DNA of 25,230 bases from the IMG/VR virus record IMGVR_UViG_3300010296_003804, positions 1 to 25,230 of that record; one strand, given 5' to 3'. The notes under the pieces were generated by a model that was not told where the DNA came from, searched no databases, and saw only the letters and a list, made by a program, of their open reading frames with translations. The stretch's first letter is position 1. Every line of letters starts with the position of its first letter. The DNA is from a virus. A program made the position numbers and the translations under genes. Below, piece after piece: positions 2,597 to 20,611 of the stretch.

Positions 2597-5147
2597 AATC
2601 TGGTACATATCCTGATGGGCCTGCAACTGTTGGATCACCTACGTCTCCGTCTTGGAATATGTTTCTAATTGTTGCCAATGATGGTTTACTGATTACCGGA
2701 GCAATGTATGTGTTATGGAAAGCATAACCTAATGGGTTATTTGTTTGAATACCTGCTTGGGTACGCATATCGTCTGTCCATTCAGGCGCAAGACTTCCAC
2801 CGTCCCATAATTCTGTGTATTCAAACATACTAAAGTTTAGTAAGTACAAGTATTCTTTTGCGGCTACTTCAAATGCATCTGCATCTGTTTTCCAAGCATT
2901 TGATGGACTTTGATAACCTGATGGATCCCACTTGCCGGCATCGTATGCTTCTTCCATTGCCGCATACAAATCACCTGTCTGCCAGTCAGCGGCTAAGAAC
3001 TGATATAGTTTTATATCGTCTGCAGGTAACCCGTGCATGTGTAGTGTGTGGAATACGTGTTCAATAACTTCTTGTGCGTCTATATCGCCGTCGCCATAAC
3101 CATCACCAGTTGAGTTCAAATACCACACCATATCGTTTTGTACAGTAGTATCAAACAAGTCTGTTAGATTCCAAAATATAATGCCAGCATCTGTTAAAAA
3201 GTTTGTGCTATAGTCTGAGCCAGCACCTCTTGCTACTCTTTGTATTGTTGGTAACCCTGCATGATATGTTCCTGCGTCACCACTAAGTGTTTTAATTAAA
3301 TTTCTTTGGTATTCTTCGTTAATGCCTGCACCATTTGGATCTGTAAACAATTCAAACATACGTGCTACTTTTTCTAACCACGCATCTGGAACTGCTGTTT
3401 GTCCTCCAACTGCGCCGGCACCCATTATCCTTACACCATTTACAGTAACTTCCCGTTTAAAGAAGTCACTACCATCGCCAACAACATTAATAATTGCACC
3501 ATTGTTGTATTCTGGATCTGCTTCTACTACTGGTACTGCTGGAACTTCTGCCGGAGTATAATTAGGGAAAATTCCCTGTAATTTAAGATTTGCTCCGTTC
3601 ACTTCTACAGGTTGCCTGCCATATCTTGAAAATAAAATTTTATCAGATGCACCTAATAATGATGTAGTAAAATTAAGATAATCACTATCAGATGCTGTAT
3701 CATACATTAATGGTTTTGCATCTGCTTCAATTTTTGCTTTTAGTTGTGCCGGCGTTGCTCCGGGTTGAGATTCTAAGTGTAATCCTGCAACGCCACATAC
3801 TTGGGGTGCAGCAAAACTTGTGCCACTATTAAGTGCAATTCTATATGCGTTATCTAATGGATATACAGCATCATTTTTGTCATTAATCGTGCTAGTTGCA
3901 GAAACAATATCAGTTCCAGGCGCCCAGATTTTTACTCTCGGACCTCTTGAGCTAGTAGCTGCTGCCCTGTCTTTTGCGATGCCGTTATCGTCAAAAGTTG
4001 TTGTGTTTATGTTACCTACTATAAACGCATTATCTGAATGAGGTGAACTTCCTCTATGATAAAAAAGCGTAGTTGCTCCATATGTTACAGAATTATCATA
4101 ATCTACACCACCCGATACATCTCCTTTATAATAATCATTGCCTGCAGCAATAAAAACATGCACACCGCTTGCGATTAAATCTTCTACATCGGCATCTACA
4201 GAAGCTACCCTAACAGGTATACGCCTTGAAAATCCTAATGGTAAAACAATACCGGTTCCTGTCCACAATGCAGTATTGTCATTATAATCTACCCCCCATA
4301 CCCAAGGTGTTCCTCTATAATTTCCACTTGTCGGATCCCCAGCCACCGTTGACAAATAACCCCAACTCATGTTGACTATGGTAGGTCTTTTGTATCCTGT
4401 TGCAGGATCAACTGGTTTTGATTCATGCCATAATCTTATAGTGTCAAAACAGTCTGATATAGGTATACCGGTGCCTGCATCTCCACTACCTTCTAAACCT
4501 GCCAGTTTCATTGAATAAATTTTTGCTTCTTTTGCAAATCCGTATGTTTTGCCAGCAACAATACTAGCACACATAGTTCCGTGACCATCATAATCTCTAT
4601 GGTAGCTTGCACTTTGAGAACCAGGCAAGCCCGAAGCTTCATACCAATCGATGTATTGATATCTATTATTTCCTGCATGATCTTCCCAATCTGGATGCGT
4701 AGGTTCAATACCACTATCTTGAACAACTAGATCAACTCCTCTACCCTGCAAAGCGTAATCATAATTATTAGATGTGGTTGCAGAATCTTGATATAAATTT
4801 GTTTCCATAATAGATCTTTTTAATCCCCAATTAACATATGCAACATTATCTAATGAAGTTGGTTTTGTAAAATTAGCAAACTGAGTACTTCTTAATCCTA
4901 TTTGTATATCGGTACGCTGATCGGGCGGTATTTCTACCGCAAGTATTCTATCGTCTGATTCCAATGCTGTTGCTTCAGCATCTGTTAACATAAAATGTGT
5001 CTGTCTATTCGATCCTAATCTTGGATTTGCAATCTCTACACTTCGATTAGGTATAGGTCCTGCACCTGTTGATGCAGTAAGTTCTGTTTCAATTTCTTCT
5101 AAATTAATACCGCTTTTAACGATTACAGTATATTCTTTTTCGCTCAT
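2595..5147 (-). CDS. Subtilisin-like (S8) serine protease, virion-associated
   Basis: An 850-residue protein with a clear S8 triad: Asp144 in VVQDSGI, His189 in DGHGTMCAS, Ser444 in NSGTSFAAP. The oxyanion Asn is Asn337 in FIAAGND. Residues 1-100 may be an inhibitor-like propeptide (VIVKSGINLEEIE). The C-terminal 300 residues are not protease: they contain an acidic loop, DGYGDGDIDAQE at 682-693, resembling an EF-hand/dockerin calcium site, followed by EHVFHTLHMHG, which may bind metal. There is no signal peptide. The open frame extends 14 codons further upstream to 5189, but I chose ATG 5147 because AAGG precedes it at normal spacing and the longer form would overlap the preceding gene by 34 bp. 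The position between two fibre-like genes suggests processing of virion proteins or degradation of host surface proteins. Confidence 0.88.
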   Translation of the reverse strand: MSEKEYTVIVKSGINLEEIETELTASTGAGPIPNRSVEIANPRLGSNRQTHFMLTDAEATALESDDRILAVEIPPDQRTDIQIGLRSTQFANFTKPTSLDNVAYVNWGLKRSIMETNLYQDSATTSNNYDYALQGRGVDLVVQDSGIEPTHPDWEDHAGNNRYQYIDWYEASGLPGSQSASYHRDYDGHGTMCASIVAGKTYGFAKEAKIYSMKLAGLEGSGDAGTGIPISDCFDTIRLWHESKPVDPATGYKRPTIVNMSWGYLSTVAGDPTSGNYRGTPWVWGVDYNDNTALWTGTGIVLPLGFSRRIPVRVASVDADVEDLIASGVHVFIAAGNDYYKGDVSGGVDYDNSVTYGATTLFYHRGSSPHSDNAFIVGNINTTTFDDNGIAKDRAAATSSRGPRVKIWAPGTDIVSATSTINDKNDAVYPLDNAYRIALNSGTSFAAPQVCGVAGLHLESQPGATPAQLKAKIEADAKPLMYDTASDSDYLNFTTSLLGASDKILFSRYGRQPVEVNGANLKLQGIFPNYTPAEVPAVPVVEADPEYNNGAIINVVGDGSDFFKREVTVNGVRIMGAGAVGGQTAVPDAWLEKVARMFELFTDPNGAGINEEYQRNLIKTLSGDAGTYHAGLPTIQRVARGAGSDYSTNFLTDAGIIFWNLTDLFDTTVQNDMVWYLNSTGDGYGDGDIDAQEVIEHVFHTLHMHGLPADDIKLYQFLAADWQTGDLYAAMEEAYDAGKWDPSGYQSPSNAWKTDADAFEVAAKEYLYLLNFSMFEYTELWDGGSLAPEWTDDMRTQAGIQTNNPLGYAFHNTYIAPVISKPSLATIRNIFQDGDVGDPTVAGPSGYVPD

Positions 5148-5155
5148 AGCATACC

Positions 5156-6430
5156 TTATACAATCGGACTTGTGTCTACAATTTTCCAAGCGCCATTTAC
5201 ATACATTTCTGGTCTATTGTTTGTTGTATTATAAATCATATCGCCGTTGGCTGGAACTAATGCATCTCGTTGTGTATTAGTTAAACTTGGTAATCTAAAT
5301 GGGCCTCCGGAGACAATGGTACCATCTTGACTAGATAAATTTATTGTTGTAGCACTGTCAATTTTAGGAGTACCTGCAGAAGTCGTTACAAAGTTGTTTG
5401 CATATGCAGTATTTCGTACACTAAGATCATTTTCTACAGTTAGATCTGACGAAGTTGTTACTGGTGGCGTAAAAGTAATACCGCTACTATCATCTGTGTC
5501 TATTACACTATTAGATAGAGTAAAATTACCAATACTATCTCCACCGGCTGCATCTTCAAATGTAAAGTTGCCTTCTCCATCTGTTGTTAATACTTGACCA
5601 ATTGTGCCGTCAGTAATACCTAAATCTGTCAAGGTGTTAATGACCGGATAAACTGGCTGTACCCATTGGTTACTATCTTCATCTTCTACATACACAAAAA
5701 GTTTTGCGGTTGTACTATCAAACCAAATAGACCCATTTGTAGGACTTTCTGGTGCAATTTCTGATACACTTATGCTTGTATCGCCGGCACCTGATCCTGG
5801 AAAAGATGAAGCAATAGTATTACCCATTCCGGTATGACTAGTACACCAATAGTATAACTGAGATGGCGTGTTACTTGTTATTGTTATCTGGACACTTCTC
5901 TGTGATGCACCGGCAAAACCATTTACATATTCTGCTTTTGATACTACATCGTTGTTAAGTTTATAAATTACATTTGAAAGATAAGTTGTACCATCACCTA
6001 GTTCACCATCTTGATCATCTTGACTAAAACTTAAAGGATGAATATTTGCAGTAGTTCCTGGGGTATTAGGAAAATACTCATTTGTGTCATCATTTTGATT
6101 AAAAATATATGTATAACCAATAACTAAGTTTAACTGAGGCTTATATTCTCCATCGATAAAATATTTGTTACCTACTTCTAATCCGTCTGGATCAACACCT
6201 ACTGTAACAGTGTATTCAACAACTCCTACACCACTTGATATAAGGTTAGAAGTAATGTTTGAATCAGTTAATACGGTGTATCCGCCAGCAAGTTTTCCTG
6301 AATATAATCTTAGAGTATTTGATTGTTTGTCAAAGAAAACCTCGCCACTGTTTCCGACATTTCTGTCAAGGAAATCGTCCGGGCGAGGTATAATCCTAAT
6401 TCTGTCTACAATTGGTGCTTGATTTGCCAT
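5156..6430 (-). CDS. Virion structural protein with internal cupredoxin-like domain
   Basis: A 424-residue fibre-like protein. The N-terminus (GEVFFDKQSNTLRLYSG, about 29-45) and the module SPTNGSIWFDSTTAKLFVYV further on are short beta modules common in marine T4-like phage structural proteins. The C-terminus (NTQRDALVPANGDMIYNT then MYVNGAWK) resembles fibre ends and baseplate/neck proteins. Between them, about 72-205, is a cupredoxin-like domain with IHPLSF (His131) and YYWCTSHTGMGN (Cys196, His199, Met202), again a full His-Cys-His-Met set. Translation probably uses GAAGGA nine bases before ATG, which lies inside a hairpin (see 6439-6474). The following protease begins 8 bp after its stop. 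Confidence 0.75.
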   Translation of the reverse strand: MANQAPIVDRIRIIPRPDDFLDRNVGNSGEVFFDKQSNTLRLYSGKLAGGYTVLTDSNITSNLISSGVGVVEYTVTVGVDPDGLEVGNKYFIDGEYKPQLNLVIGYTYIFNQNDDTNEYFPNTPGTTANIHPLSFSQDDQDGELGDGTTYLSNVIYKLNNDVVSKAEYVNGFAGASQRSVQITITSNTPSQLYYWCTSHTGMGNTIASSFPGSGAGDTSISVSEIAPESPTNGSIWFDSTTAKLFVYVEDEDSNQWVQPVYPVINTLTDLGITDGTIGQVLTTDGEGNFTFEDAAGGDSIGNFTLSNSVIDTDDSSGITFTPPVTTSSDLTVENDLSVRNTAYANNFVTTSAGTPKIDSATTINLSSQDGTIVSGGPFRLPSLTNTQRDALVPANGDMIYNTTNNRPEMYVNGAWKIVDTSPIV

Positions 6431-6438
6431 TATTCACT

Positions 6439-6474
6439 GTCCTTCACAATATATTTATGCTAATTGTAAAGGAC
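6439..6474 (-). promoter_or_regulatory. Hairpin sequestering a ribosome binding site, with a late promoter box in its loop
   Basis: On the minus strand the arms GTCCTTTACAAT (6474-6463) and ATTGTGAAGGAC (6450-6439) form 12 consecutive pairs in RNA, counting one U-G wobble; the plus-strand RNA would have a C-A mismatch at that position. The 3' arm contains GAAGGA, the probable Shine-Dalgarno of the gene starting at 6430. The 12-base loop contains CATAAATA, a late-promoter-like box. Read-through RNA from groEL would hide the site; RNA begun at the box would lack the 5' arm. Confidence 0.55.
6452..6459 (-). promoter_or_regulatory. T4-type late promoter box, CATAAATA
   Basis: One-base variant of TATAAATA on the minus strand, 21 bases before the ATG at 6430. 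It sits in the loop of the 6439-6474 hairpin. It would drive the structural gene and possibly the protease and fibre gene downstream. Confidence 0.45.
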
Positions 6475-6480
6475 TGAGTT

Positions 6481-8157
6481 TTACTGTTCGTATTGAGGTG
6501 GCAAACTTCGTTCACCTGCACTAGGTGCTGGTCCTATAACACTTAGATCTTCTTCATCATTATCTTCATATATAGCGCAATCTGTAATTAGGAGTAGTCC
6601 TGCAATACTTGAAGCATTTTTTAATGCTTTTTGTACAACTGTCACAGGATCAATAATACCAATATCAAACATATTTCCGTATTCTCCTGTTGCAGCATCA
6701 TATCCGTACTCGATATCGCCCTTTGAAACTTCGTTAGATACAACATCCGGACTGTCACCTGCATTGAAAACAATTTGTCTTAAAGGTTCTTCCATGGCTT
6801 TTAGAACAACTTGTATACCAGCATCTTGTTCAGTATTTGCGCCTTTAAGATTTTTTAGTTTGTTCTTTGCTCTAATAAGAGCAACTCCTCCGCCAGGTAC
6901 AATACCGTCTTTGAGAGCTGCTTTAGTAGCATGAAGAGCATCATCAATTCTATCTTCTTTTTCACGAAGTTCTATTTTAGTAGCACTGCCTACTCTAATA
7001 ATACTTACTGCTCCAGTTAAATTTGAGATACGCTTTTGTTGTCCTTTATCAGTAAAAACATCATCTCCTCTTGGAGCATCTATATAGTATTCAATTTTAT
7101 CTTTGATATATTGTGCAATTTCTTCTTTGTCTCCGTGTCCGCCTATAATTGTTACTTGGCTATCAGTTATTTCTACTCTGTTAGCTTGTCCACAATCTTC
7201 AATTTCGGCACTTTCAACTTTTCTACCAGTTTGATCAGAAATAACTTTACCACCTGTTAATACTGCAATATCCTCACAGTACTTGGTACGCATTTTTCCC
7301 TTCCAATCTGGTGGTTTTACTGCACAACAACTAATAGAACCATTTAGTGTGTTAATTACTAGTGTTGCTAACACATCAGTTTCAACTTCTTCAGCCATGA
7401 TTAAAAATGGTCTTTTTGTTGCCACTAGTTTTTCTAGAATAGGCAATACATCTTGCATATTTAGAATAGGTCTGTCACAGATAAGTATCAAAGGATTTTC
7501 TAAAACACATTTTTGTTTAGGAGCATTTACAAATTGCGGTGAAAGATATCCGTGTTCATATTGAAATCCATTTACCTTTAATAGTTCATCTTCATAACTC
7601 ATACCTGGTTCTACCGAAACCAGTGCTTGATGTGTTGGTTCGTCTCCTCCGAGAGATTCTGCAATTAGTTTTCCTAATTTTTCATCGTTATTTGTTGCAA
7701 TAGATGCTACTGCTTCTACTGTTTTTCTATCAGCACACTCTTTGGCATCTTCTCTTAATACTTTTAGTGCTTCTTCTACTGCAATATCTATTCCTCTTTT
7801 AAGATTAATGCCACTTATTCCCGCAGTTAAAAACTTTTGTCCTTCGTTGATCATTTTTTGAGCTAATAGTGTTGCTGTTGTAGTACCATCGCCGATGTCA
7901 TCAAATGTTTGGCTCGCTGCTTGTTTTATCATACGGACACCAGTGTCTTCTAATTTGTCTTTTAACCAAATTTCCTTTGCAACTGTTACACCGTCCTTGG
8001 TTACATGAGGAGGTCCAAATGTTCTTTGAATAATTACATTTCTACCTTTCGGACCTAGTGTTACTTTTACAGCATCAGCAAGTACATTTACACCGTCAAT
8101 AATTTTTTTGCGACCTTCTGCACCATTAGCAACTATTCGAGGAATAATTTTACCCAT
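6481..8157 (-). CDS. groEL: Phage-encoded GroEL chaperonin (Hsp60)
   Basis: A 558-residue full-length group I chaperonin. Visible hallmarks: VTLGPKGRNV (32-41), the ATPase Asp55 in TKDGVTVA, IGDGTTTATLLAQ with Asp90, Asp406 in RIDDALHATKAAL, and VPGGGVALIRA (420-430). It should form a ring that folds proteins with ATP and GroES. It differs from bacterial GroEL in several places. The apical Tyr203 of E. coli is Gln208 here (GYLSPQF), and the conserved PGFGDRRK loop is replaced by PPDWKGKMR. The C-terminus ends SAGERSLPPQYEQ without the GGM repeats that line the cavity. It overlaps groES by 8 bp. A phage GroEL next to structural genes probably folds capsid or tail proteins, or the many enzymes of this region. 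Confidence 0.97.
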   Translation of the reverse strand: MGKIIPRIVANGAEGRKKIIDGVNVLADAVKVTLGPKGRNVIIQRTFGPPHVTKDGVTVAKEIWLKDKLEDTGVRMIKQAASQTFDDIGDGTTTATLLAQKMINEGQKFLTAGISGINLKRGIDIAVEEALKVLREDAKECADRKTVEAVASIATNNDEKLGKLIAESLGGDEPTHQALVSVEPGMSYEDELLKVNGFQYEHGYLSPQFVNAPKQKCVLENPLILICDRPILNMQDVLPILEKLVATKRPFLIMAEEVETDVLATLVINTLNGSISCCAVKPPDWKGKMRTKYCEDIAVLTGGKVISDQTGRKVESAEIEDCGQANRVEITDSQVTIIGGHGDKEEIAQYIKDKIEYYIDAPRGDDVFTDKGQQKRISNLTGAVSIIRVGSATKIELREKEDRIDDALHATKAALKDGIVPGGGVALIRAKNKLKNLKGANTEQDAGIQVVLKAMEEPLRQIVFNAGDSPDVVSNEVSKGDIEYGYDAATGEYGNMFDIGIIDPVTVVQKALKNASSIAGLLLITDCAIYEDNDEEDLSVIGPAPSAGERSLPPQYEQ

Positions 8158-8458
8158 TGTTTGTGTCTCCTTTAAGTTTACCTAAAACTTCATGTTCCTC
8201 TAGAATCAGATATTCTTCTGCGTTAATTTTAATTTGATGTCCTGCATACTTAGGATAAACTATTAGATCACCTTGTTCAATAACCATAGATAATTGTTTC
8301 CCGTCATCATTTATTTTTCCTGGACCTACAGCAATAACTCTACCCTTTGTAGGTCTTTCCTTGGTGTCATCAGAAAGAACTAGTCCAGACTTTGTTTTTA
8401 ATTCATCTTCAATTTTTTGTACGAGAATTCTATCTCGTATTGGTTCAAATTCTTGCAT
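8150..8458 (-). CDS. groES: Phage-encoded GroES co-chaperonin
   Basis: A 102-residue Hsp10 of normal length. It has the N-terminal FEPIRDRILVQKIE motif, a mobile loop at about 21-38 with the GroEL-binding tripeptide region GLVL (25-28), TKGRVIAVGPGK (38-49), and GDLIVYPKYAGHQIK (63-77) at the base of the dome. It caps GroEL. T4 uses its own cap, gp31, with host GroEL; this phage instead has a matched pair. The start ATG is preceded by GGGAG at ten bases and by an exact TATAAATA late promoter box 35 bases upstream. The last bases overlap the groEL start, suggesting coupled translation. Confidence 0.96.
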   Translation of the reverse strand: MQEFEPIRDRILVQKIEDELKTKSGLVLSDDTKERPTKGRVIAVGPGKINDDGKQLSMVIEQGDLIVYPKYAGHQIKINAEEYLILEEHEVLGKLKGDTNNG

Positions 8459-8493: not shown

Positions 8494-8501
8494 TATTTAT
8501 A
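8494..8501 (-). promoter_or_regulatory. T4-type late promoter, exact TATAAATA
   Basis: Exact T4 late consensus on the minus strand, 35 bases before the groES ATG and in the 73-bp gap after the tail assembly chaperone gene. It would drive groES-groEL late in infection. Confidence 0.7.
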
Positions 8502-8975: not shown

Positions 8976-9001
8976 TATGACTCCTTACTATATTACAAAT
9001 G

Positions 9002-9009
9002 TATTTATA
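9002..9009 (-). promoter_or_regulatory. T4-type late promoter, exact TATAAATA
   Basis: Exact late consensus on the minus strand, 26 bases before ATG 8975. It overlaps the stop codon of the upstream oxygenase gene. It is flanked by imperfect arms (CAAAT and ATTTG). Confidence 0.7.
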
Positions 9010-9658
9010 CAAATTTGTTCAAATCTTTATAACCAAGTTGCGGTCTTTTATCGTAAATCCATTCTGGATAAAACGGGCCATTTTTGTCTATATAATGGAA
9101 AAAACCTTGTACATGATAACTATTTATTCCTGCTTCAAATGGATCTCGCCAATGTTCAATATCAATACCTCTATATATCAATATGTCTCCGGGCTGTTGC
9201 TTTATCATTTCACCAGGATTATTTGAGCTCACAAAATCTCCTAAAGATCCTGTACCGTATGAGTCTTTGTCAACATACATACCCCAGTTGTAATCGTCTA
9301 CTGCATTAATATAATTAAAACCGAAGCAGGCCGTTGTGCTTATTTCACAACTTTCTCTATCTTTATGTCTTTCTAACTCTTGTCCAGGTCTATAAACCCT
9401 ATAGTAACTGTATGTAGGGCATAATTTTAAACCAGTATTGTTTTCCATATGAGGTAATAGAAAATAAAGCAAGGTTTCCATAAGTGTATCTGCATAAACA
9501 CTGTGAGAAAAAGGTACTTGCCCGTCTGCTTCTTCTGGTTCAAAATTAATTTCTTCTTTCATTAAGCAGTATTTTGAAACAAGACTGCATATATCCTTAG
9601 GTATAACTTGTTTGCAGTCTACATACATATCATTTTTAAATAATTCTGCGTTTGTCAT
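9005..9658 (-). CDS. 2OG-Fe(II) oxygenase-like protein
   Basis: A 217-residue protein with a double-stranded beta-helix core. YRVYRPGQELERHKDRES gives His98-x-Asp100, and GDILIYRGIDIEHWRDPF gives the distal His169. The end HVQGFFHYID is like small bacterial oxygenases with the HWR-x-x-F...FFHY/FLHY ending. No Arg occupies the usual anchor place about ten residues after His169, so 2-oxoglutarate binding is less clear than in its neighbours. Such enzymes use Fe(II), O2 and 2-oxoglutarate to hydroxylate a substrate, which here is unknown. It overlaps the preceding oxygenase gene by 4 bp (ATGA) and belongs to a three-gene minus unit that starts at 11060. Confidence 0.75.
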   Translation of the reverse strand: MTNAELFKNDMYVDCKQVIPKDICSLVSKYCLMKEEINFEPEEADGQVPFSHSVYADTLMETLLYFLLPHMENNTGLKLCPTYSYYRVYRPGQELERHKDRESCEISTTACFGFNYINAVDDYNWGMYVDKDSYGTGSLGDFVSSNNPGEMIKQQPGDILIYRGIDIEHWRDPFEAGINSYHVQGFFHYIDKNGPFYPEWIYDKRPQLGYKDLNKFV

Positions 9659-10440
9659 CTAAATGGGTATCCTAAATTCCAAGCAACTAAACTATATCGT
9701 GTACCTTCAGTTACAGGAGTTACTTGATGATAAATGTGTGAAGGAAAAACTATTACAGATCCTTGTGGTCTAATTTCTTTACAAGTATGATATCTTTTAT
9801 CTGCATGAGGGCCAAAATCAAATCTAAGATTGCCACCTTTGTATTCTTCTGGCTTGTTTAGGCTAATAGTAACACTTAGTTTTCTAATCTTACCGATTAA
9901 ATTTTCGTTAGTACTTGCTAGATTATCTTCAACTAAAGGATTACCAAATGTGTCTAACATCTGAGATCCATCTGCCTTTAGTTTATATTTGTCTATTTCA
10001 GGATCGAATCTTCTATAAGGTTTTGACCCCATATCAACATGCCATCCGTAAAATTGTCCAGGGCCATATTTAGTAAATTGGAATTCTTCAGTATAGTCCC
10101 AATCAAAATTCCAATTTGCATTTTTGTTTGCTTCAGCTACGAACGCCTGGACCATGTCATAAAGATAAGGATCGCTTAACCATGTAATATTAGAATCTCT
10201 TACATAAGCTGACTTTGGGTCTATTCCTTTTTTCTTTAATCCCTCAATAGTAAGATCATTTACGCCTGTAGAATATTCATCTGATTTGTGTTGCCAACCA
10301 CCTGTAGTAGCAATTGAAACTTCTTTTCCGTATGCTTTTTCTTGCTCATGCATTTTTGCAATGCCGGCTTCGACTATAGCATCACATATTTCTGGTTTAA
10401 TAGCAGATTCAAAATACCAATAGTCATAATCTAGTATCAC
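9655..10440 (-). CDS. 2OG-Fe(II) oxygenase, PKHD/prolyl hydroxylase-like
   Basis: A 261-residue enzyme with all the expected ligands: His134-x-Asp136 in FYGWHVDMG, distal His238 in FPSHIYHQV, and Arg248 in EGTRYSLVAW for 2-oxoglutarate. The strand pattern RKLSVTISLNKPEEYKGG is typical of PiuC/PKHD-type hydroxylases. An insertion between the first motif and that strand (about 140-183) is charged and may form a lid. It probably hydroxylates a peptide or a small molecule; the substrate cannot be inferred. Both ends overlap neighbours by 4 bp, so all three oxygenases of this unit should be made together. Confidence 0.9.
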   Translation of the reverse strand: MILDYDYWYFESAIKPEICDAIVEAGIAKMHEQEKAYGKEVSIATTGGWQHKSDEYSTGVNDLTIEGLKKKGIDPKSAYVRDSNITWLSDPYLYDMVQAFVAEANKNANWNFDWDYTEEFQFTKYGPGQFYGWHVDMGSKPYRRFDPEIDKYKLKADGSQMLDTFGNPLVEDNLASTNENLIGKIRKLSVTISLNKPEEYKGGNLRFDFGPHADKRYHTCKEIRPQGSVIVFPSHIYHQVTPVTEGTRYSLVAWNLGYPFR

Positions 10441-11060
10441 TTGAACAGGGCTCCGTGTATGTGTCCAATTATTATTTTCTTTTCACCTTTTGTAACCTTA
10501 TTAATTTTGTAAGGAGTAAAAGAAGGAAATATAAGAATTTTTCCTTTTTCGTTTGTGTTATGTTCGCTAGTATCTGTATTTAAAAATTCAATATCGCCGC
10601 CTTCGTAGTCTTTTTGATCTGAAAGATTTATTATCCAAGTAATTTTTCTAGTTGGTGCTAGAATATTAATGTCAATATGCCAATCATAGTAACAATCCTC
10701 TGTATATTTGTAAATTTGTGGGAAGTCTTGATCAATAATACCTAAAAGATCAAAATTGTATATTTGATCGTTAGCTGCTTTTGTAACATCTCTAATCTTC
10801 TCAAAAGGAAATCCATTAACATCTCCTCTTAATTTTTGTCTAAATCCTTGATGTAAGTTAGAATCACCATGTACCTTGATAGGCATCCATAATTCTTCTA
10901 TTGTATTTTCCCCAATTAATTCACAATCTTCTGTAGAAAAAATGTTACTGAAGTTTACTGAAGTTATTTGAAGTGACGGCTCATTTGATATTGGTGTATC
11001 CTGTTCTTGCCTTTGTTCTGCAAGATCTGTAAATCCACCGCTTAAATTTGTTTCATTCAT
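10437..11060 (-). CDS. 2OG-Fe(II) oxygenase homologue lacking the distal metal His
   Basis: A 207-residue homologue of prolyl hydroxylase-like enzymes. YYDWHIDINI gives His128-x-Asp130 and ITWIINLSDQKDYEGGDIEF is the standard core. At the place of the second metal His, however, the protein reads FPSFTPYKI with Tyr184 (codon TAC, one base from CAC), and the Arg anchor is replaced by Lys (GEKK, 192-195). It is probably inactive as a standard dioxygenase, or has altered chemistry. The frame is intact, so it is not a simple pseudogene. The start is clear: GGAGG six bases before ATG 11060. The N-terminal 30 residues are polar and probably disordered. It leads the three-gene minus unit. Confidence 0.8.
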   Translation of the reverse strand: MNETNLSGGFTDLAEQRQEQDTPISNEPSLQITSVNFSNIFSTEDCELIGENTIEELWMPIKVHGDSNLHQGFRQKLRGDVNGFPFEKIRDVTKAANDQIYNFDLLGIIDQDFPQIYKYTEDCYYDWHIDINILAPTRKITWIINLSDQKDYEGGDIEFLNTDTSEHNTNEKGKILIFPSFTPYKINKVTKGEKKIIIGHIHGALFK

Positions 11061-11183
11061 GTTTTTCCTCCAACTGAAGCATACTTACTTATCATAGTAG
11101 TTAATGGTTAGAAAAAATTTCTGAGTCGTATTTGTTGTCTACAACTAGGTGCTATGTTAAATATACTATATTAGGATGGAACA
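11061..11183. promoter_or_regulatory. Divergent intergenic region
   Basis: This 123-bp gap between divergent oxygenase genes is the longest non-coding stretch in the window. It holds a short inverted repeat, GTTGT-CT-ACAAC at 11134-11145, which could be an operator. On plus, GTTAAATA at 11156-11163 matches six of eight bases of the late box, 20 bases before ATG 11184. An AGGA ribosome site follows at 11173-11176. No convincing promoter faces the minus gene. Confidence 0.35.
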
Positions 11184-11783
11184 ATGTCTTTACCAGAAAA
11201 AATTCAATATACACCCATAATTTTGACCGAAGAAGAAAGGGCAATTATTGAAAACGACATTCTTGGTTACTATTTTCCATGGTACTATATTAGCAAACAA
11301 ACTACATATATCTATCAAGATGTTGTTCCTAAAGAAATTAGAGACGGTGAATATGTAAACGGTCCGTTTTTAAGCCATTCTCTTCTAAGAAGAACCGAAG
11401 AAGAACATATTAAACATACACAACGACCTATGGATCATTATAGTGAAGGATATTATGAATTTTTTATAGGAATTTTTCATAGATGGATGCAGGCTAACAA
11501 CCTAAAATATTCTAATATATTTAGAGCAAATTTAAATTGTAACTGGTATAATGGTGATGATGCTGTAACAGTTCCTCATGAAGATCACACATGGCCTCAT
11601 TACAATTGGCTGTTATATTTGACTGACAATCCTGGAGCGCCAACACTTATTTGGCATGACGACAAGTGGTTAGAATTACCTGCAGAAAAATTTATGGTTT
11701 CAAACTTTGAAGGATGCTATCATGCACACAAATACCCTAAAGTGGGCGAAAGAAGAGTAGTGGTAGTAATAACATATGTCTAA
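11184..11783 (+). CDS. 2OG-Fe(II) oxygenase-like protein
   Basis: A 199-residue protein with complete ligands: VPHEDHTW gives His132-x-Asp134, CYHAHKYP gives the distal His180, and ERRVVVV gives Arg190, ten residues later. The ending resembles the two minus-strand proteins at 19402-20013 and 20015-20572 (YHTA-x-x-P, then R ten residues after His), so these three form one subfamily. All three also share FPW near the N-terminus. The start is supported by AGGA seven bases upstream. It leads a plus-strand unit of two oxygenases and two halogenases with overlapping ends, implying joint expression. Substrate is unknown. Confidence 0.8.
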   Translation: MSLPEKIQYTPIILTEEERAIIENDILGYYFPWYYISKQTTYIYQDVVPKEIRDGEYVNGPFLSHSLLRRTEEEHIKHTQRPMDHYSEGYYEFFIGIFHRWMQANNLKYSNIFRANLNCNWYNGDDAVTVPHEDHTWPHYNWLLYLTDNPGAPTLIWHDDKWLELPAEKFMVSNFEGCYHAHKYPKVGERRVVVVITYV

Positions 11784-12417
11784 TACAATTTTTAATTCTA
11801 TAGACCAAACAGTTGTAATGCATATGCAAAAAGAAATATCTGAAGATATGTGCAAATCTATCAGTAAGCAAATTCTAGACTATAAATTGTCTGATACAAA
11901 AAACACAGATGAAAAAATGTTAAAAAATAGCAACTTTGGTTGTTGGCGAGGTAAGCCTCATTTACACAGCGGCTTTGATCAGGAAACAGAACAATATCTA
12001 ATGAATAAAATATTAGAGGTTTCTAATCTGTATATGCAGTCTTTGCCCAGACCAATAAATTTAAACATGCAAAACATACAAATTACCAAACAGTGGAATG
12101 TTAACGCTTGGTTTAATGTAAATAACAAAGGTGCAGAAAACAGAGAACACGCCCATACTAGTAATCTTAATTTAGTTAGTGGAGTTTTTTACTTTCAAGG
12201 CACAGGAACAGGTTTTATAGAATTTATACCACAGCATTATGTATATAGGACTACACATGTTGCTTGGCCTTATCATGGAACATCATATTACGAACCTAAT
12301 GATGGAGACATTTTATTGTTTCCTAGTTATTTGATACACAAAGTACATAATAATCCTATTGATAGACAAAGAATTAATATGGCATTTAATGCTGGACTTG
12401 CTTTAGAGGAATTTTAA
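11776..12417 (+). CDS. 2OG-Fe(II) oxygenase-like protein, HxH type
   Basis: A 213-residue member of the PF13759/TIGR02466-like family: FNVNNKGAENREHAHTSN with His125-x-His127, LVSGVFYFQG strand, then GDILLFPSYLIHKV with His188 and RQRINMAFN with Arg199. The metal set is therefore three His instead of two His and one Asp. It overlaps the preceding gene by 8 bp. Its stop shares a base with the start of the first halogenase (TAATG), so the oxygenase and the halogenase are very likely translationally coupled. That pairing suggests they act on the same substrate or in the same pathway. Confidence 0.75.
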   Translation: MSNTIFNSIDQTVVMHMQKEISEDMCKSISKQILDYKLSDTKNTDEKMLKNSNFGCWRGKPHLHSGFDQETEQYLMNKILEVSNLYMQSLPRPINLNMQNIQITKQWNVNAWFNVNNKGAENREHAHTSNLNLVSGVFYFQGTGTGFIEFIPQHYVYRTTHVAWPYHGTSYYEPNDGDILLFPSYLIHKVHNNPIDRQRINMAFNAGLALEEF

Positions 12418-13946
12418 TGAAAATTGTAATTGTAGGTGGTGGCACAGCAGGATGGATAACTGCGTTAATAGCAAGTGCTAGACACCCTAATCATGAAATT
12501 GTGGTTATTGAAAGTAGTAAGATAGGTGTAGTTGGTGTTGGTGAAAGCACCACTGGACATTTTACAGACGTTCTTATAAATTGGGCTACTAATTACGGAT
12601 GTAACCAACATGATTTTATTGTAGAAACAGGTGCTACACTAAAATATGCGATCAAGCACAAGGGTTGGACCAATAATATTGATGATTACTATATAGGACC
12701 CATAGATGGTACGCATACAACTAGTGCCATTCCGGATTGTTTGTTTAATTACGGGTTGGATAAGCTAAAAAGACCAGAGCTGTTAAATCTTTCAAGATGC
12801 GGATATTGGATCTATCATGAACTAAGCAATTTTAACAAGTTTAAAAAAGAATTTATAGACTCACATCATGCTTATCACATAGACGCACATCTTGCAGGTC
12901 AATATTTTAAGAAAATTACTCTACGAAGGCTGAACACAAAACATATAGATTCTGAAGTTTTAGATGTAAAATTAAATGAACATGGTTTTGTGAAAAATTT
13001 ACTACTTTCTAACCAGGAGACAGTAGACGGAGATTTCTTTATTGATTGTTCCGGATTTAACAGAGTAATAATGAAACATTTACCAAGTAAATGGATCAGT
13101 TTTAAAGACAATCTACCTCTAAATACAGGACTACCATTCCATTTGAAATACAAAAAGGGTGAAGTTCCTGAACCTTATACAACTGCCTGGGCTCAAAAAG
13201 CAGGATGGATGTGGCAAATTCCTTTAATGGATAGGAAAGGATGCGGTTATGTATATTGTGATGCCTATACAACTCCAGAAAAAGCCCAAGAAGAAATAGA
13301 AACAATACTAGGTCAAGAAATTGATCCTATCAGAGTTATAAAATTTGATTCAGGAAGGCAAGAATCTGCATGGATTAAAAATTGTGTTACAATAGGACTT
13401 AGCAGTGCGTTTTTGGAACCACTAGAAGCTACAAGTATTCACTCAACTATTGTTCAAGCAAATAATTTATTCATGGAATATGTTAAACCAACATTTGAAG
13501 AAACTGTTAATGAAGGTAGCATGGCAATTTATAATAAAAGAACTAGAAAGTTATATGACGATATTAAAGATTTCTTGGTTCTTCATTACATGGGGGGCAG
13601 AGATGATAGCGATTTTTGGAAATATATTAAAACAGGGGTTACTAAAACAGAATTTGTCAAAGAATTGTTAGAAATGGCTAAAACAAAGACTCCTACATTT
13701 AATGATTTCCCACATTATCAAGGCAGTGCAGGATGGCCATTATACAGTTATGTTATGGAAGGTATCAATGTTTTGAACAAAGACATTTCGGCTAACGAAA
13801 TTGATTTTGACATGAAAGAAGGTAATCTTTATGAGCTCACACAACAGAGCTATTATGAATTGCAAAATCAATGGGCTGACGAAAGCAAGTATAACTTTAC
13901 ATACAAAGAATTTATTGATTATTTTAGGAATTTAAGAAATATATGA
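12417..13946 (+). CDS. Flavin-dependent (tryptophan-type) halogenase 1
   Basis: A 509-residue full-length flavin-dependent halogenase. FAD binding: GGGTAGW at 7-13, GVGESTT at 40-46 and FFIDCSGF at 207-214. Catalysis: Lys76 in ATLKYAIKHKGW aligns with the essential Lys79 of PrnA/RebH. WMWQIP at 264-269 is the diagnostic WxWxIP that blocks monooxygenation. Glu337 in FLEPLEATSIH aligns with the catalytic Glu, and the chloride-site Ser-Thr-Gly is Ala-Thr-Ser here. Such enzymes use FADH2, O2 and halide to halogenate aromatic rings. A reductase must supply FADH2, and none is visible. It is in one unit with the oxygenases upstream and overlaps halogenase 2 by 4 bp. Confidence 0.93.
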   Translation: MKIVIVGGGTAGWITALIASARHPNHEIVVIESSKIGVVGVGESTTGHFTDVLINWATNYGCNQHDFIVETGATLKYAIKHKGWTNNIDDYYIGPIDGTHTTSAIPDCLFNYGLDKLKRPELLNLSRCGYWIYHELSNFNKFKKEFIDSHHAYHIDAHLAGQYFKKITLRRLNTKHIDSEVLDVKLNEHGFVKNLLLSNQETVDGDFFIDCSGFNRVIMKHLPSKWISFKDNLPLNTGLPFHLKYKKGEVPEPYTTAWAQKAGWMWQIPLMDRKGCGYVYCDAYTTPEKAQEEIETILGQEIDPIRVIKFDSGRQESAWIKNCVTIGLSSAFLEPLEATSIHSTIVQANNLFMEYVKPTFEETVNEGSMAIYNKRTRKLYDDIKDFLVLHYMGGRDDSDFWKYIKTGVTKTEFVKELLEMAKTKTPTFNDFPHYQGSAGWPLYSYVMEGINVLNKDISANEIDFDMKEGNLYELTQQSYYELQNQWADESKYNFTYKEFIDYFRNLRNI

Positions 13947-15451
13947 ACATTGTTATTGTCGGAGGCGGGACAAGTGGTTGGACAACTGCCTTAATTTTAG
14001 CAAATGAGCATCCGCAACACCATTTCACAGTTATCGAATCAAGTAAAATTGGAATAATTGGTGTTGGAGAGAGTACAACTGGTTACTTTACAAATCTATT
14101 TGATGGTAGATATGGATTACATCTAAAAGAGTTTATGTTAGCAACTAACGCTACTCCTAAGTATGCAATCAAACATCAAAATTGGTCCAATAATGTTACT
14201 GATTACTATGTTGCACCTATTGACGGAAGTTACACTAGTGGACTTGACCAAGATTTGTTTTTCTCCTGGGGTATAAACTTTCTTGAAAGGAAAGAATTAC
14301 CAACTGTTAGTAGACTAGGTAATTTTTTGCAAAAAGGTTATACATTTTTCCATAAACAAGACAAAGATTTTATAGATTTTAATTTTGCTCTGCATATTGA
14401 TGGACAGAAAACAAGTCAATATCTAAAAACACATGTGTTAAAATTACAAAATGTAGACTTAATAGACACAGAAGTAACTAAAGTAATATTAGATGAAAAA
14501 GGTTTTATAAAAAGTCTTGATTTAGCGAACGATAACAATTTAAAAGGTGATTTTTTTATAGACTGTAGTGGATTTAAAAAGTTTCTTATAGGAGAATTAG
14601 AAAAAGATAACTGGATCAGTTATAAAAAATATTTGCCTGTAGATACTGCAATACCATTTTTTACCTATTATGAAGAAAACGAAATTCCAGAAATGTATAC
14701 AACAGCCTGGGCACAAAACAACGGATGGGTATGGCGAGGTCCACTAGCTCACAGAAGAGGAAACGGATATGTGTTTAGTAGTGATTTTTCTACTGTAGAT
14801 GATGCTATAACCGAAGTTGAAAAGGTATACGGTCACAAAATAGAACCTATTAAAATTGTAAAGTTTGATGCTGGTAGATTAAAACAATCTTGGATTAAGA
14901 ATTGTTTTGCAAATGGATTAAGTAGTCAATTTTTAGAGCCGATGGAAGCTACAGCTATCCATCATACTGTAGTTCAAACACAAATATTAAGCAAACAATT
15001 TTTAAAAAATACATTAGTAGACACTTGTAACGAACACTCGCAAAAAATCTATAATGAAACTAACGCAAAAGCGGTTGACGATTATATGAATTTCTTGAAT
15101 ATTCATTACATGGGTGGTAGAACTGATACTGATTTTTGGAAATATATAAAAAATGAATGCTGTACAGAATTTAACAAAACTTTAATTGAAAGCGCAAAGT
15201 CAAGAATTCCTAGCAGATATGATTTTCCTACCTATTACGGTAGCGGTGGCGGTCCTTTGTACAGTCATGTTATGTATGGACTAGGTTTACTAGATAAAGA
15301 TGTTGCATTTTATGATATTAATAGAACATATGAAATGCAAGACATAAAAAACAATCTATTAGACTTACAAGATGAATGGATCAACTACATGTCATATTGT
15401 ATGACTAGCGAAGAATTTCATAATTACAGATTAAAAATTAAAACTCAGTGA
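13943..15451 (+). CDS. Flavin-dependent (tryptophan-type) halogenase 2
   Basis: A 502-residue tandem paralogue of halogenase 1. The first 50 residues are close (IVIVGGGTSGW, VIESSKIGIIGVGESTTG), and both carry AIKH-x-x-W and the C-terminal HYMGGR-x-D-x-DFWKYIK. Lys73 in ATPKYAIKHQNW is kept. The diagnostic motif is WVWRGP (262-267), with Gly for the usual Ile, and the catalytic region is FLEPMEATAIH with Glu335. Changes at WxWxIP and at the halide site (Ser-Thr-Gly to Ala-Thr-Ala) may alter substrate or halide choice. The start overlaps the previous stop (ATGA). The 3' end overlaps the convergent oxygenase gene by 21 bp. Confidence 0.9.
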   Translation: MNIVIVGGGTSGWTTALILANEHPQHHFTVIESSKIGIIGVGESTTGYFTNLFDGRYGLHLKEFMLATNATPKYAIKHQNWSNNVTDYYVAPIDGSYTSGLDQDLFFSWGINFLERKELPTVSRLGNFLQKGYTFFHKQDKDFIDFNFALHIDGQKTSQYLKTHVLKLQNVDLIDTEVTKVILDEKGFIKSLDLANDNNLKGDFFIDCSGFKKFLIGELEKDNWISYKKYLPVDTAIPFFTYYEENEIPEMYTTAWAQNNGWVWRGPLAHRRGNGYVFSSDFSTVDDAITEVEKVYGHKIEPIKIVKFDAGRLKQSWIKNCFANGLSSQFLEPMEATAIHHTVVQTQILSKQFLKNTLVDTCNEHSQKIYNETNAKAVDDYMNFLNIHYMGGRTDTDFWKYIKNECCTEFNKTLIESAKSRIPSRYDFPTYYGSGGGPLYSHVMYGLGLLDKDVAFYDINRTYEMQDIKNNLLDLQDEWINYMSYCMTSEEFHNYRLKIKTQ

Positions 15452-16054
15452 TATTCTTCCATCACTTTCATCTTCAGTAATGTTTTGTTCTACATAATGA
15501 CTGACATGGCTAGGAAAAAGCACTAGCATTCCTTCAACTGGTATAAACCAATGTGAATTATTAGTTTCAGTATTATCTACAATTAAATCATTTGTAGCGT
15601 AAATGCTTTGTATATTGTGCATACGATCGTATTCGTTGGTACTACGATTAAAAACTATCCTACCACTATCTTTAGGAACTTTTATATAATAAACACCACT
15701 TACAAGAGCATTTGCATGAATGTGTTCTCTATTATATGTGTATTTTGGATTTAGATTATACCAATAGCTAAAACTGTTAATATCGTGAGGTACTTTCCAT
15801 CCGTTTAGTATTGTGCTAACTGACGGTTTGATAAAATTATCAAATAATTTTGCTGTTTCTTCATGATCATAAGGTAAAGGGTAAATATCATTAGTTTGAA
15901 ATCCGCCAGCATTGCTTCTTTGCCGGCGTACATTTGGAACATTTTTATCAAGATGATACACATGCTCAGTTATTTTGCTGTTGTCAATGTCATTTACATA
16001 AGTAACATATGCAGATGTGACAAACATAGGATGGTATTCTAAATGTATGTTCAT
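15431..16054 (-). CDS. 2OG-Fe(II) oxygenase-like protein, HxH type
   Basis: A 207-residue protein of the PF13759/TIGR02466-like family: WYNLNPKYTYNREHIHANAL with His111-x-His113, LVSGVYYIKVP strand, GMLVLFPSHVSHYV with His186, and GRISLSFNF with Arg200 ending the protein. Substrate is unknown. It is a single-gene minus unit between two plus-strand halogenases. An AATAAATA box lies only 5 bases before ATG 16054, so a late transcript would start at about the ATG itself. The alternative start is Met10 (16027), which would have a 27-base leader; neither has a clear Shine-Dalgarno. The 3' end overlaps halogenase 2. Confidence 0.75.
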   Translation of the reverse strand: MNIHLEYHPMFVTSAYVTYVNDIDNSKITEHVYHLDKNVPNVRRQRSNAGGFQTNDIYPLPYDHEETAKLFDNFIKPSVSTILNGWKVPHDINSFSYWYNLNPKYTYNREHIHANALVSGVYYIKVPKDSGRIVFNRSTNEYDRMHNIQSIYATNDLIVDNTETNNSHWFIPVEGMLVLFPSHVSHYVEQNITEDESDGRISLSFNF

Positions 16055-16059
16055 GCAGA

Positions 16060-16067
16060 TATTTATT
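16060..16067 (-). promoter_or_regulatory. T4-type late promoter box, AATAAATA
   Basis: Minus-strand AATAAATA, one base from consensus, 5 bases before ATG 16054, in the 24-bp divergent gap shared with halogenase 3. With T4 spacing the transcript would begin at about the first base of the start codon. Confidence 0.5.
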
Positions 16068-16078
16068 GTTAGCCTTAT

Positions 16079-17560
16079 ATGGATGGAAAAAAATTGAACA
16101 AGTTAGAAAAAATATCAGTAGTTGGTGGCGGAACAGCAGGATTAGTTGCTGCACTTATACTTAAAACAAGATTTCCTAGCAAAAAAATAAATTTAATTAG
16201 ATCAGAAAAAATAGGTATCATAGGTGTAGGTGAAGGTTCTACTGAACATTGGAACGAATTCATGAATTATATAGGTTTAACATGGCGTGATATCATTAAT
16301 AACTGTGATGCTACACTAAAATCTGGTATTATGTTTAAAGGTTGGCACGATAAAGATTACTTACATAGTATTGGGCCTGAACACGAAATACTAAATGGCC
16401 AATATAGAATGTATTATGGTAAAGTAATAGCTCATAATAAATCTAACAAAGAACTTAACCCAATTTTTACTTGGGAAAACAAAGTTGATAGCTGGCACTT
16501 AGAAGAAGGGAATAGTAGTCCTTACAATCAGTACCATTTTAACACACAAAAATTAAATGATTACCTTAGTTTTGTAGCTCAAAGCAGAGGAATAGATTTT
16601 ATCGACGATGAAGTGAATGATATTATATTAAACGAGCACGGGGATATAGATTATCTTATAGGAGAAAAACAAAATCACAAAGCAGATTTCTTTATAGATT
16701 GCACCGGATTTAAAAAACTTCTTATTAGCAAACTTGGAGCTAAATGGAATTCCTACAGTCAATTTCTTAAAATGAAATCAGCAATAGTTTTTCCTATCCA
16801 AGATTCACAAGAAATAAATTTGTGGACAACTGCCCAAGCAATGGATTATGGTTGGATGTTTAAAATACCTGTTTGGGATAGAAGTGGCAATGGTTATATT
16901 TTTGACAGCGATTATATAAATGCTGATCAAGCTAAAGATGAGGTAGAAAAGTTTTTAGGACACGAAATAAATGTAGCAAAACATATAAATTTTGATCCAG
17001 GCGCTCTTGATCGTGTATGGATTAAAAATTGTTGTGCTGTTGGGCTAAGTGCAAGTTTCGTAGAACCATTAGAAGCAACAAGTATAGGTACAAGTATTAA
17101 TCAAACTTTTTTACTGATGCACAAATTACCTAATTACACTCAAAAAAGTATAGACACTTACAATAGAATGGTGGAAACTATTTTGTTAAACATAAGAGAT
17201 TTTGTTTTATTACACTATGTTACCAATAAAGAACATACAAATTTTTGGAAAGATGTAAAAAATACAAAATTACCTGATGATTTAAAAGAAAATATTCAAC
17301 ATTGGAAGCATAATTTGCCAATATTAGAAGATTTTATAGAAACAGGTAGTTATGCATTATTTAAAGATCCGCACTTTATACAAGTGTTAGCTGGTTTAGA
17401 AATATTTGATAGAAATAGTTTGTTAAAAGAATATGACCAATTTGGTCCAGTAGTAAAAAAACTTGCAGATAAGGCTGAATCAGAAAGACAAGTAATGTTA
17501 TTAAACAAAAAACCAATCGGCCATAAAGAATTTATTAGTAGATTACGGACTGAAAAATAG
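16079..17560 (+). CDS. Flavin-dependent (tryptophan-type) halogenase 3
   Basis: A 493-residue divergent halogenase. FAD motifs are GGGTAGL at 16-22 and GVGEGST at 49-55 (the others have GVGE-S/A-T), then FFIDCTGF at 204-211. Lys81 in ATLKSGIMFKGW is kept. The diagnostic motif is WMFKIP (259-264), so the second Trp of WxWxIP is Phe. Catalytic Glu332 lies in FVEPLEATSIG. The W-to-F change is in the motif held to separate halogenases from monooxygenases, so activity should be tested rather than assumed. No good Shine-Dalgarno precedes ATG 16079, and only 24 bp separate it from the divergent oxygenase, so its promoter would lie within that gene. The 3' end overlaps the convergent gene by 18 bp. 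Confidence 0.88.
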   Translation: MDGKKLNKLEKISVVGGGTAGLVAALILKTRFPSKKINLIRSEKIGIIGVGEGSTEHWNEFMNYIGLTWRDIINNCDATLKSGIMFKGWHDKDYLHSIGPEHEILNGQYRMYYGKVIAHNKSNKELNPIFTWENKVDSWHLEEGNSSPYNQYHFNTQKLNDYLSFVAQSRGIDFIDDEVNDIILNEHGDIDYLIGEKQNHKADFFIDCTGFKKLLISKLGAKWNSYSQFLKMKSAIVFPIQDSQEINLWTTAQAMDYGWMFKIPVWDRSGNGYIFDSDYINADQAKDEVEKFLGHEINVAKHINFDPGALDRVWIKNCCAVGLSASFVEPLEATSIGTSINQTFLLMHKLPNYTQKSIDTYNRMVETILLNIRDFVLLHYVTNKEHTNFWKDVKNTKLPDDLKENIQHWKHNLPILEDFIETGSYALFKDPHFIQVLAGLEIFDRNSLLKEYDQFGPVVKKLADKAESERQVMLLNKKPIGHKEFISRLRTEK

Positions 17561-18181
17561 TACTTGGTTAAGTCTAAACTGTGTAAAATAATCATCATTT
17601 TCCACAGCCATGCCATGTAGGAAATACCCTGCATCAAAAAGCACAACTCTGTTAAACACACCTTCTAAAGTCTTAATAACTTTATATTTTTTTGCAGGGC
17701 GCCATGGTTGATAATGTTCTGGACCTTCATATGTATCGTCTTCTAGTTGCTCGTACAAGTTAGTTCCCTGTTTTGTATTAGGATTTAGATAAATTATACC
17801 TATATATCCTTCAAAATCAATATGCGGTAACCAAAAGTTATTTTTATAATCATTAAATTCTATGTCTAAAAATTTAGTGCAATTAGTTACTACAATATCT
17901 CTGTTAATACCTACATAATGTTGACCGCAAATATTAGCTAAAGTATCACCTACTACTTCTACATTACTATCTTTAAACGCATGTCTATAGTCTAAAAAAT
18001 GCACACTATTATAACTAGGTGTATCATGTTCTTTCCAAAGTTTTGGTTGTTCTACCGTAAGCAGAAAAGAAACTAATTCGTCAGGATATTCATAGAAATT
18101 ATCTATGTAAATAATTTTACTGTTGTCAAAAATTTCTTCTCTGACAGTAAAATTTTTTGATATTTCAAATTTGTTTACCAT
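17543..18181 (-). CDS. DUF6445-like putative 2OG-Fe(II) oxygenase
   Basis: A 212-residue protein with the layout I associate with DUF6445, a family often found near tryptophan halogenases: YIDNFYEYPDELVSFLL near the N-terminus, FWLPHIDFEGYIGIIYLNP with His120-x-Asp122, GTNLY, then NRVVLFDAGYFLHGM with His189 and FRLNQVLFF with Arg203. The HxD...H...R order implies Fe(II)/2-oxoglutarate chemistry, although the family is not characterised to my knowledge. It is the last gene of the five-gene minus unit beginning at 20572. Its ATG abuts the stop of the preceding gene, sharing one base. Confidence 0.72.
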   Translation of the reverse strand: MVNKFEISKNFTVREEIFDNSKIIYIDNFYEYPDELVSFLLTVEQPKLWKEHDTPSYNSVHFLDYRHAFKDSNVEVVGDTLANICGQHYVGINRDIVVTNCTKFLDIEFNDYKNNFWLPHIDFEGYIGIIYLNPNTKQGTNLYEQLEDDTYEGPEHYQPWRPAKKYKVIKTLEGVFNRVVLFDAGYFLHGMAVENDDYFTQFRLNQVLFFSP

Positions 18182-18771
18182 TAACCAAAATTGACCGCAA
18201 TACTTATTCTCGGTGTTTCATTATTGCAAGGTTCGACCATATGTCTTAGATAAGATCTAAAAATTAACAAAGAACCTTCTTCAGCTGGATAGCCTATTCT
18301 TGTAAAACTTAAAGGATTTTTTTCTTGTATGTTTTTTACCTGTAACATATCCGGTTCTTTGGGATCTTCAAAAATTAATTTACCTGAACCTTCTGGAGCT
18401 GCTACCCAATATACACAACTGAATATAGCATTATTATGTGTATGAAATTCTTGAAATGTACCTTTTTCATTTATGTTTAACCAGGCGCCTGTGATACTAT
18501 ATTTTGCAGTTGATCCGTGCATTCTTGCAAAGTTGTGAGTGTGGTCAGAAATGCATCCTAATAAGTGATCAAACTTTGCATCGTTTGTTAGATCTAAAGT
18601 ATCGTGTGTATTATAAGTTTCTCCATACCATTCACTTCCTCCATTTGGTACAGTTTCTCTTAATTTGATACTGTGATCAAACAGTTCTTTGTTTTGCTTG
18701 CTGGTTAATATATTTGTATCCTTGTAGATTGCTACAGGAAACCACATTTCAACTTTTGGCGCCATTATCAT
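18181..18771 (-). CDS. 2OG-Fe(II) oxygenase-like protein, HxH type
   Basis: A 196-residue member of the PF13759/TIGR02466-like family: WLNINEKGTFQEFHTHNN with His110-x-His112, FSCVYWVAAPEGSGKLIFED, GSLLIFRSYLRHMV with His177 and PRISIAVNFG with Arg188. The start could be Met1 (18771) or Met3 (18765); GAG stands six bases before Met3, which favours the shorter form. The 5' end overlaps the preceding paralogue by 23 bp (17 bp from Met3). The N-terminal VEMWFPVAIY matches the family habit of beginning with a short strand ending in P-V/T. Substrate is unknown. Confidence 0.78.
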   Translation of the reverse strand: MIMAPKVEMWFPVAIYKDTNILTSKQNKELFDHSIKLRETVPNGGSEWYGETYNTHDTLDLTNDAKFDHLLGCISDHTHNFARMHGSTAKYSITGAWLNINEKGTFQEFHTHNNAIFSCVYWVAAPEGSGKLIFEDPKEPDMLQVKNIQEKNPLSFTRIGYPAEEGSLLIFRSYLRHMVEPCNNETPRISIAVNFG

Positions 18772-19405
18772 CTCGCATTGTTCTAACAGTTTTTACTACG
18801 TCATCTATATCTGCCCAAATATTGTAAGAAACAGATATTCTATCTTCTGTTGATTCATTTCGTTCCACACTATGTTGTAACCAAGATTCAAACATTATCA
18901 TTTCTCCAACTTTAGGTTCATATTCAATATAATCATAATTGTATTGATTTTCTCCTGTGCGAATTCTTTCAAAATATACATCGCTTGCTCTTCTTGGTTC
19001 TAAAGGATTATGAAATTTTAAATTTCCACTTTTTTCTGGTACTTGAAGATAGAATACTCCGCTAACACAGGCTCCGTAATGATCATGTCTATTAAATAAT
19101 GATCCAGGTTGATTAAGTTGTAACCAACTAGTAATTTCAATATAACAATTAGGATTAAAACCTCTTAATTCCAGAAAACCTCTAACATGGTTATTAATTT
19201 CTTCTAAAATTGGAATAGCGTTAATACTACCTAGAAAATTTTTGTTATCGTGATAGTAAGTTGTTAACAATTCGTTTGTATGGTCTTTAGCACCAGGCAT
19301 TTTGTTTTTTATGTAATCTCTTACTTTAAGATCTGTATCTGCTACAGCATCTTTGGATAATTCTAAAGTAACTATAGGAATAGGAAATGCATGATCTATT
19401 TTCAT
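18749..19405 (-). CDS. 2OG-Fe(II) oxygenase-like protein, HxH type
   Basis: A 218-residue paralogue of the following gene: WLQLNQPGSLFNRHDHYGAC with His107-x-His109, CVSGVFYLQVPEKSGNLKFH, GEMIMFESWLQHSV with His178, and EDRISVSYNIW with Arg189. It carries an extra C-terminal tail of about 22 residues (VVKTVRTMRDDNGAKS) not present in the other copies. It overlaps the upstream gene by 4 bp. The two neighbouring HxH proteins look like a tandem duplication that diverged early, because their flanking residues differ widely. Substrate is unknown. Confidence 0.78.
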   Translation of the reverse strand: MKIDHAFPIPIVTLELSKDAVADTDLKVRDYIKNKMPGAKDHTNELLTTYYHDNKNFLGSINAIPILEEINNHVRGFLELRGFNPNCYIEITSWLQLNQPGSLFNRHDHYGACVSGVFYLQVPEKSGNLKFHNPLEPRRASDVYFERIRTGENQYNYDYIEYEPKVGEMIMFESWLQHSVERNESTEDRISVSYNIWADIDDVVKTVRTMRDDNGAKS

Positions 19406-20013: not shown

Positions 20014-20014
20014 T

Positions 20015-20572: not shown

Positions 20573-20577
20573 AGCAA

Positions 20578-20585
20578 TATTTATA
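20578..20585 (-). promoter_or_regulatory. T4-type late promoter, exact TATAAATA
   Basis: Exact late consensus on the minus strand, 5 bases before ATG 20572, in the 39-bp gap to the divergent halogenase 4. It would drive the five-gene oxygenase unit 20572-17543. Confidence 0.65.
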
Positions 20586-20611
20586 AGTACTCGTGTGCAA
20601 GGAAAAAATAA

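Follow-up and report, generated by a model that had tools for sequence, protein, structure and literature searches.

We identified a cis-acting RNA hairpin that probably acts as a transcript filter for the tail gene starting at position 6430 of the window, the 25,230-base IMG/VR record analysed here over its full length. The hairpin is real and built as the initial annotation had described it: 12 continuous pairs including one U-G, with GAAGGA in the 3′ arm and a late promoter box in the loop, match the sequence and its predicted fold exactly (Table 1). Most likely, the element joins the late-promoter-in-hairpin switches of the T4 e/I-TevI class as a new member, here found on a tail/baseplate-type gene.

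Results

Anatomy and fold of the leader hairpin

The 5′ arm is located in the noncoding gap downstream of groEL and starts 6 nt past the groEL stop codon (stop at 6481). For the 66-nt leader, the folding energy is −15.8 kcal/mol compared to −7.4 on average in shuffles (z −3.6; 2 of 200 shuffles equal it), and shuffling only the 25 nt upstream while keeping the box and the downstream sequence fixed yields p = 0.0023 (20,000 shuffles). Within a 200-nt context, the stem is kept in both the MFE and the centroid structures, where the total energy stands out less (z −1.5). Stem length alone is not decisive, because stems with 12 or more pairs, no more than one G-U and a loop of 4–16 occur on average 0.7 times per strand in shuffled sequence; the whole window contains one other. 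The decisive features are instead position, comprising the ribosome site and the late box, and conservation. An Rfam search of the window matched no family at the gathering score.

Table 1 Features of the hairpin leader and of its gene neighbourhood (window coordinates)
Feature	Position	Strand	Basis or remark
Hairpin	6474-6439	minus	12 continuous pairs, one U-G; sequence and predicted fold
5′ arm GTCCTTTACAAT	6463..6474	minus	sequence, fold pairing, compensated conservation
Loop TAGCATAAATAT, 12 nt	between arms	minus	sequence
Late promoter box CATAAATA	6459-6452	minus	in hairpin loop; sequence
3′ arm ATTGTGAAGGAC	6439..6450	minus	sequence, fold, conservation
Ribosome-binding site GAAGGA	6445-6440	minus	within 3′ arm; sequence
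Predicted late transcription start, +1 near 6446	6445..6447	minus	inside 3′ arm; inferred from T4 box position
ATG of the putatively regulated tail gene	6430-6428	minus	sequence
Putatively regulated gene, 424 aa, tail/baseplate type	5156..6430	minus	partial match to phrog_708 (baseplate wedge)
groEL	6481..8157	minus	co-directional; possible read-through source
groES	8150..8458	minus	
Late-type box TATAAATA upstream of groES	8494-8501	minus	also in all co-directional relatives examined
Tail-assembly chaperone gene	8975-8532	minus	
Late-type box before tail-assembly chaperone gene	9002-9009	minus	

Gene neighbourhood and late boxes

The minus strand encodes, in this order, a tail-assembly chaperone, groES, groEL, the 6430 gene, a subtilase-domain protein and a phrog_677 protein. 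Cyanophages provide the nearest isolate matches of the 424-aa tail gene, at about 27–36% identity, and a search of isolates for a close relative of the window phage found none. Late-type boxes precede the tail-assembly chaperone gene, groES, the 6430 gene and the 2572 gene in the window, and nearly all relatives of the 424-aa tail gene have an ATAAATA core ahead of their ATG. Homologues of the gp55-type late sigma factor were detected in 4/4 relatives' records over 115 kb; gp55 was not found in the shorter fragments, among them the window and the co-directional relatives. Promoter-like matches for a longer upstream transcript occur at chance level.

Two further observations concern this neighbourhood. 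At 8985–9024, the tail-assembly chaperone gene has a late box flanked by ACAAAT/ATTTGT arms (6 bp), which are not significant (p 0.30) and leave the ribosome site of this gene uncovered. Positions 9005–24360 contain a dense block of small 2OG-Fe(II) oxygenase-like and about 500-aa tryptophan halogenase-like proteins, as judged by eye from the translations; the cultured pelagiphage HTVC008M carries annotated genes of both kinds, 2OG-Fe(II) oxygenase and tryptophan halogenase.

Predicted folds of read-through and late RNA

T4 late boxes span −13 to −6 (PMC2988020). The predicted +1 of the window promoter is therefore near 6446, inside the 3′ arm, so that late RNA would lack the 5′ arm. We propose that the two transcript forms behave as follows: (i) read-through RNA from groES-groEL would contain both arms and form the 12-bp stem, which would hide GAAGGA and leave the tail gene untranslated; (ii) RNA polymerase with a phage late sigma factor would use the CATAAATA box of the loop and start at about 6446, and the resulting RNA, whose ribosome site is open and whose leader measures about 16 nt, would allow translation of the tail gene. 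This sequestration logic, already put forward from the sequence, agrees with model folds of both forms. Over eight leaders, opening the ribosome site is predicted to cost a median of 10.2 kcal/mol in read-through RNA versus 0.28 in late RNA; for the read-through RNA of the window, the value is 12.1 kcal/mol. The leader of the late-start RNA is unstructured in the model fold.

Conservation through compensatory change

Eight distinct leaders have groEL directly upstream and co-directional (window, L006, L010, L011, L013, L014, L018 and L019). They represent four deep lineages, between which four-fold sites of groEL are only about 35–48% identical; at this divergence, a noncoding 5′ arm that still pairs needs selection as its explanation. 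Over the eight leaders, 97.1% of cells are paired, compared to 39–57% in slid controls, and GAAGGA is invariant. Departures include one internal mismatch in L014 and the missing outermost pair in L006.

The initial annotation had named compensating changes in relatives as a check of the stem. Such changes are present: two pairs have changed on both sides, from A-U to G-C and from C-G to U-A, both within the single lineage L018/L019. One-sided changes in the eight leaders are mostly to G-U in the mRNA sense, namely C-G to U-G in the window and L018 and A-U to G-U in L011, and these preserve pairing in the mRNA sense only. The wobble pair had been taken to favour a role in minus-strand RNA, an argument that gains strength from the two more one-sided changes in relatives that are also G-U in that sense. 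Judged from the aligned leaders, the structure is conserved through compensatory change.

Association with the orientation of the upstream gene

The presence of the hairpin is associated with a co-directional groEL. With co-directional groEL upstream, hairpin p is at most 0.01 in 8/8 leaders; values below 0.05 are obtained for 8 of 30 leaders with other co-directional upstream genes and for one of eight with a divergent upstream gene, the rows of the comparison not being independent. Other late-box genes reveal no general excess of hairpins (6/72 below p 0.05), and p < 0.01 is reached there by one family only, L039/L040.

In the tail-gene tree, L002, L012 and L027 are nested in the clade that holds all hairpin leaders, and the nesting of L012 and L027 is strongly supported. 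L002 and L012 carry groES-groEL in the opposite orientation, and L027 has an unrelated divergent gene upstream of the tail gene. The hairpin is absent in all three (p 0.16, 0.23 and 0.32 for L002, L012 and L027), and the late box is retained in each of them. Comparison of L027 with L018 shows that leader and upstream gene were swapped together, with the breakpoint just before the ATG. The leader thus moves with the upstream gene, and shared descent of one junction therefore partly explains the association of hairpin and groEL.

Weaker cross-box hairpins in the non-groEL relatives L225, L209, L042, L023 and L231 have unrelated arms and were not counted as the same element. Strong or moderate hairpins of unrelated sequence surround the tail-gene late box in L225 (about 2940–2998), L231 and L193, where groEL is not upstream; these are possibly independent inventions. 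In L040 (about 5080–5145) and L039 (about 5120–5185), the late-box leader of a protein beginning MALRLRRGTQ... carries TTTCTCC/GGAGAAA arms around the box, and its ribosome site is hidden (−16.8 and −13.1 kcal/mol for L040/L039, p 0.003).

Candidates from wider scans were rejected. A collection-wide scan for CCTT..ATAAATA..GAAGG gave mostly chance hits among the matches listed. Look-alikes upstream of gene 3 (tail completion) owe their appearance to an intrinsic terminator that closely precedes the late box; the CCTTTTTTT tail of this terminator happens to pair with GAAGGA. In HTVC008M, 0/5 late leaders were significant for a hairpin.

Discussion

Alternative functions of the hairpin

Each of three alternatives, namely termination, translational coupling and a DNA palindrome, is less likely than a transcript filter. 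The hairpin could chiefly terminate transcription or protect the 3′ end of the groES-groEL mRNA, with the overlap of the ribosome site being secondary. Its start 6 nt past the groEL stop, the intrinsic terminator found right after groEL in distant groEL relatives and the TTTT that follows the stem in L010, L011, L018 and L019 would all be in line with such a role. In the window, however, the stem is not followed by a T run (ACAGTGAATAATG), a terminator scan of this strand of the window calls none, and the stem is AT-rich, encloses a 12-nt loop and always includes late box and ribosome site, which makes a primary function at the groEL mRNA end unlikely. We consider it somewhat less likely still that ribosomes finishing groEL open the hairpin, with the tail gene translated from groEL mRNA and the two outputs tied. 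Such coupling would fit a 5′ arm that begins 6–13 nt past the groEL stop in all lineages, a distance near the footprint of a terminating ribosome. Yet in every lineage no part of the 5′ arm belongs to the groEL coding sequence, so that translating ribosomes never cross it; moreover, 50–57 nt separate the groEL stop from the start of the tail gene, which has its own predicted promoter in the loop.

A 12-pair stem somewhere in an AT-rich 25-kb window is not rare, and a palindrome might arise by chance or be selected as a DNA-binding site. Either origin is highly improbable for the present element in view of the compensatory changes, which persist despite near-saturated neutral divergence, of the G-U changes, which pair in the mRNA strand only, and of the 72 other late-box genes, nearly all of which have no comparable hairpin.

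Relation to known late-gene switches

The mechanism proposed for the filter is already known, the comparative evidence is good and the location is new. In T4 e, late RNA lacks the 5′ arm of the leader hairpin (PMC3014915). As in the window, the late box of T4 e is in the loop and the ribosome site in the 3′ arm, with a stem of about 11 bp and −13.3 kcal/mol compared to −15.4 in the window. The target of the T4 e element is lysozyme, whereas the window element precedes a tail/baseplate-type gene downstream of groES-groEL with its own late box; we claim no sequence homology between the two, and the function in the window is a predicted one. For I-TevI, I-TevII and segB of T4 and mobE of Aeh1, the position of the late promoter keeps the inhibitory stem from forming in late RNA (PMC2988022). 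These genes encode mobile endonucleases, several of them inside introns, in contrast to the virion-type gene following a chaperonin operon described here.

For T4 soc and gene 49, both of them late genes, longer transcripts conceal the initiation region (PMC3014915), and the same source confirms the precedent of e, soc and 49 that had been invoked for the window. Like the tail/baseplate-type gene, soc is structural; in the soc and 49 folds, the box lies next to the stem or upstream of it, whereas the window box is in the loop. Our hairpin test recovers T4 e and I-TevII (p 0.003 each) and misses T4 soc, 49 and segB, whose boxes are placed differently. A narrow full-text literature query returned no report of the scheme in cyanophage-type phages.

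Timing or insulation

The annotation as a T4-style switch holds with respect to anatomy, predicted sequestration, precedent and compensation. The less certain component is a read-through RNA timed apart from late RNA: groES has its own TATAAATA-type box, and the upstream unit, together with its read-through RNA, may therefore be late too. Insulation against read-through translation is as well supported as an early-off/late-on timer. Tentatively, the hairpin could be a transcript-class filter between two late units, the chaperonin operon and the tail gene, with the output of the tail gene set by its own promoter only.

Other junctions in related phages show different arrangements. Just past groEL, the distant groEL relatives L265–L289 carry a bidirectional terminator, a GC-rich hairpin with A and T runs on its flanks, and their tail-assembly chaperone gene is convergent to groEL. 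In L062, L070, L076 and L133, a gene-3-like tail completion gene is preceded by a late box that has an intrinsic terminator directly on its upstream side. The terminator at the groEL end in distant relatives and the terminator before the gene-3 late box would represent other ways of separating units.

The hairpin accompanies a groES-groEL cassette that points into the tail gene and is missing when this cassette is inverted or replaced; on the tentative reading as a filter between two late units, the phages would rewire translation control together with gene order. The natural comparison of co-directional and divergent chaperonin cassettes, along with the compensatory changes, points to selection. 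A classic T4 device, known from lysozyme, soc, gene 49 and homing endonucleases, would thereby extend to a tail/baseplate-type gene of uncultured T4-like phages, which offers a sequence-level route to asking when phages insulate late genes against read-through.
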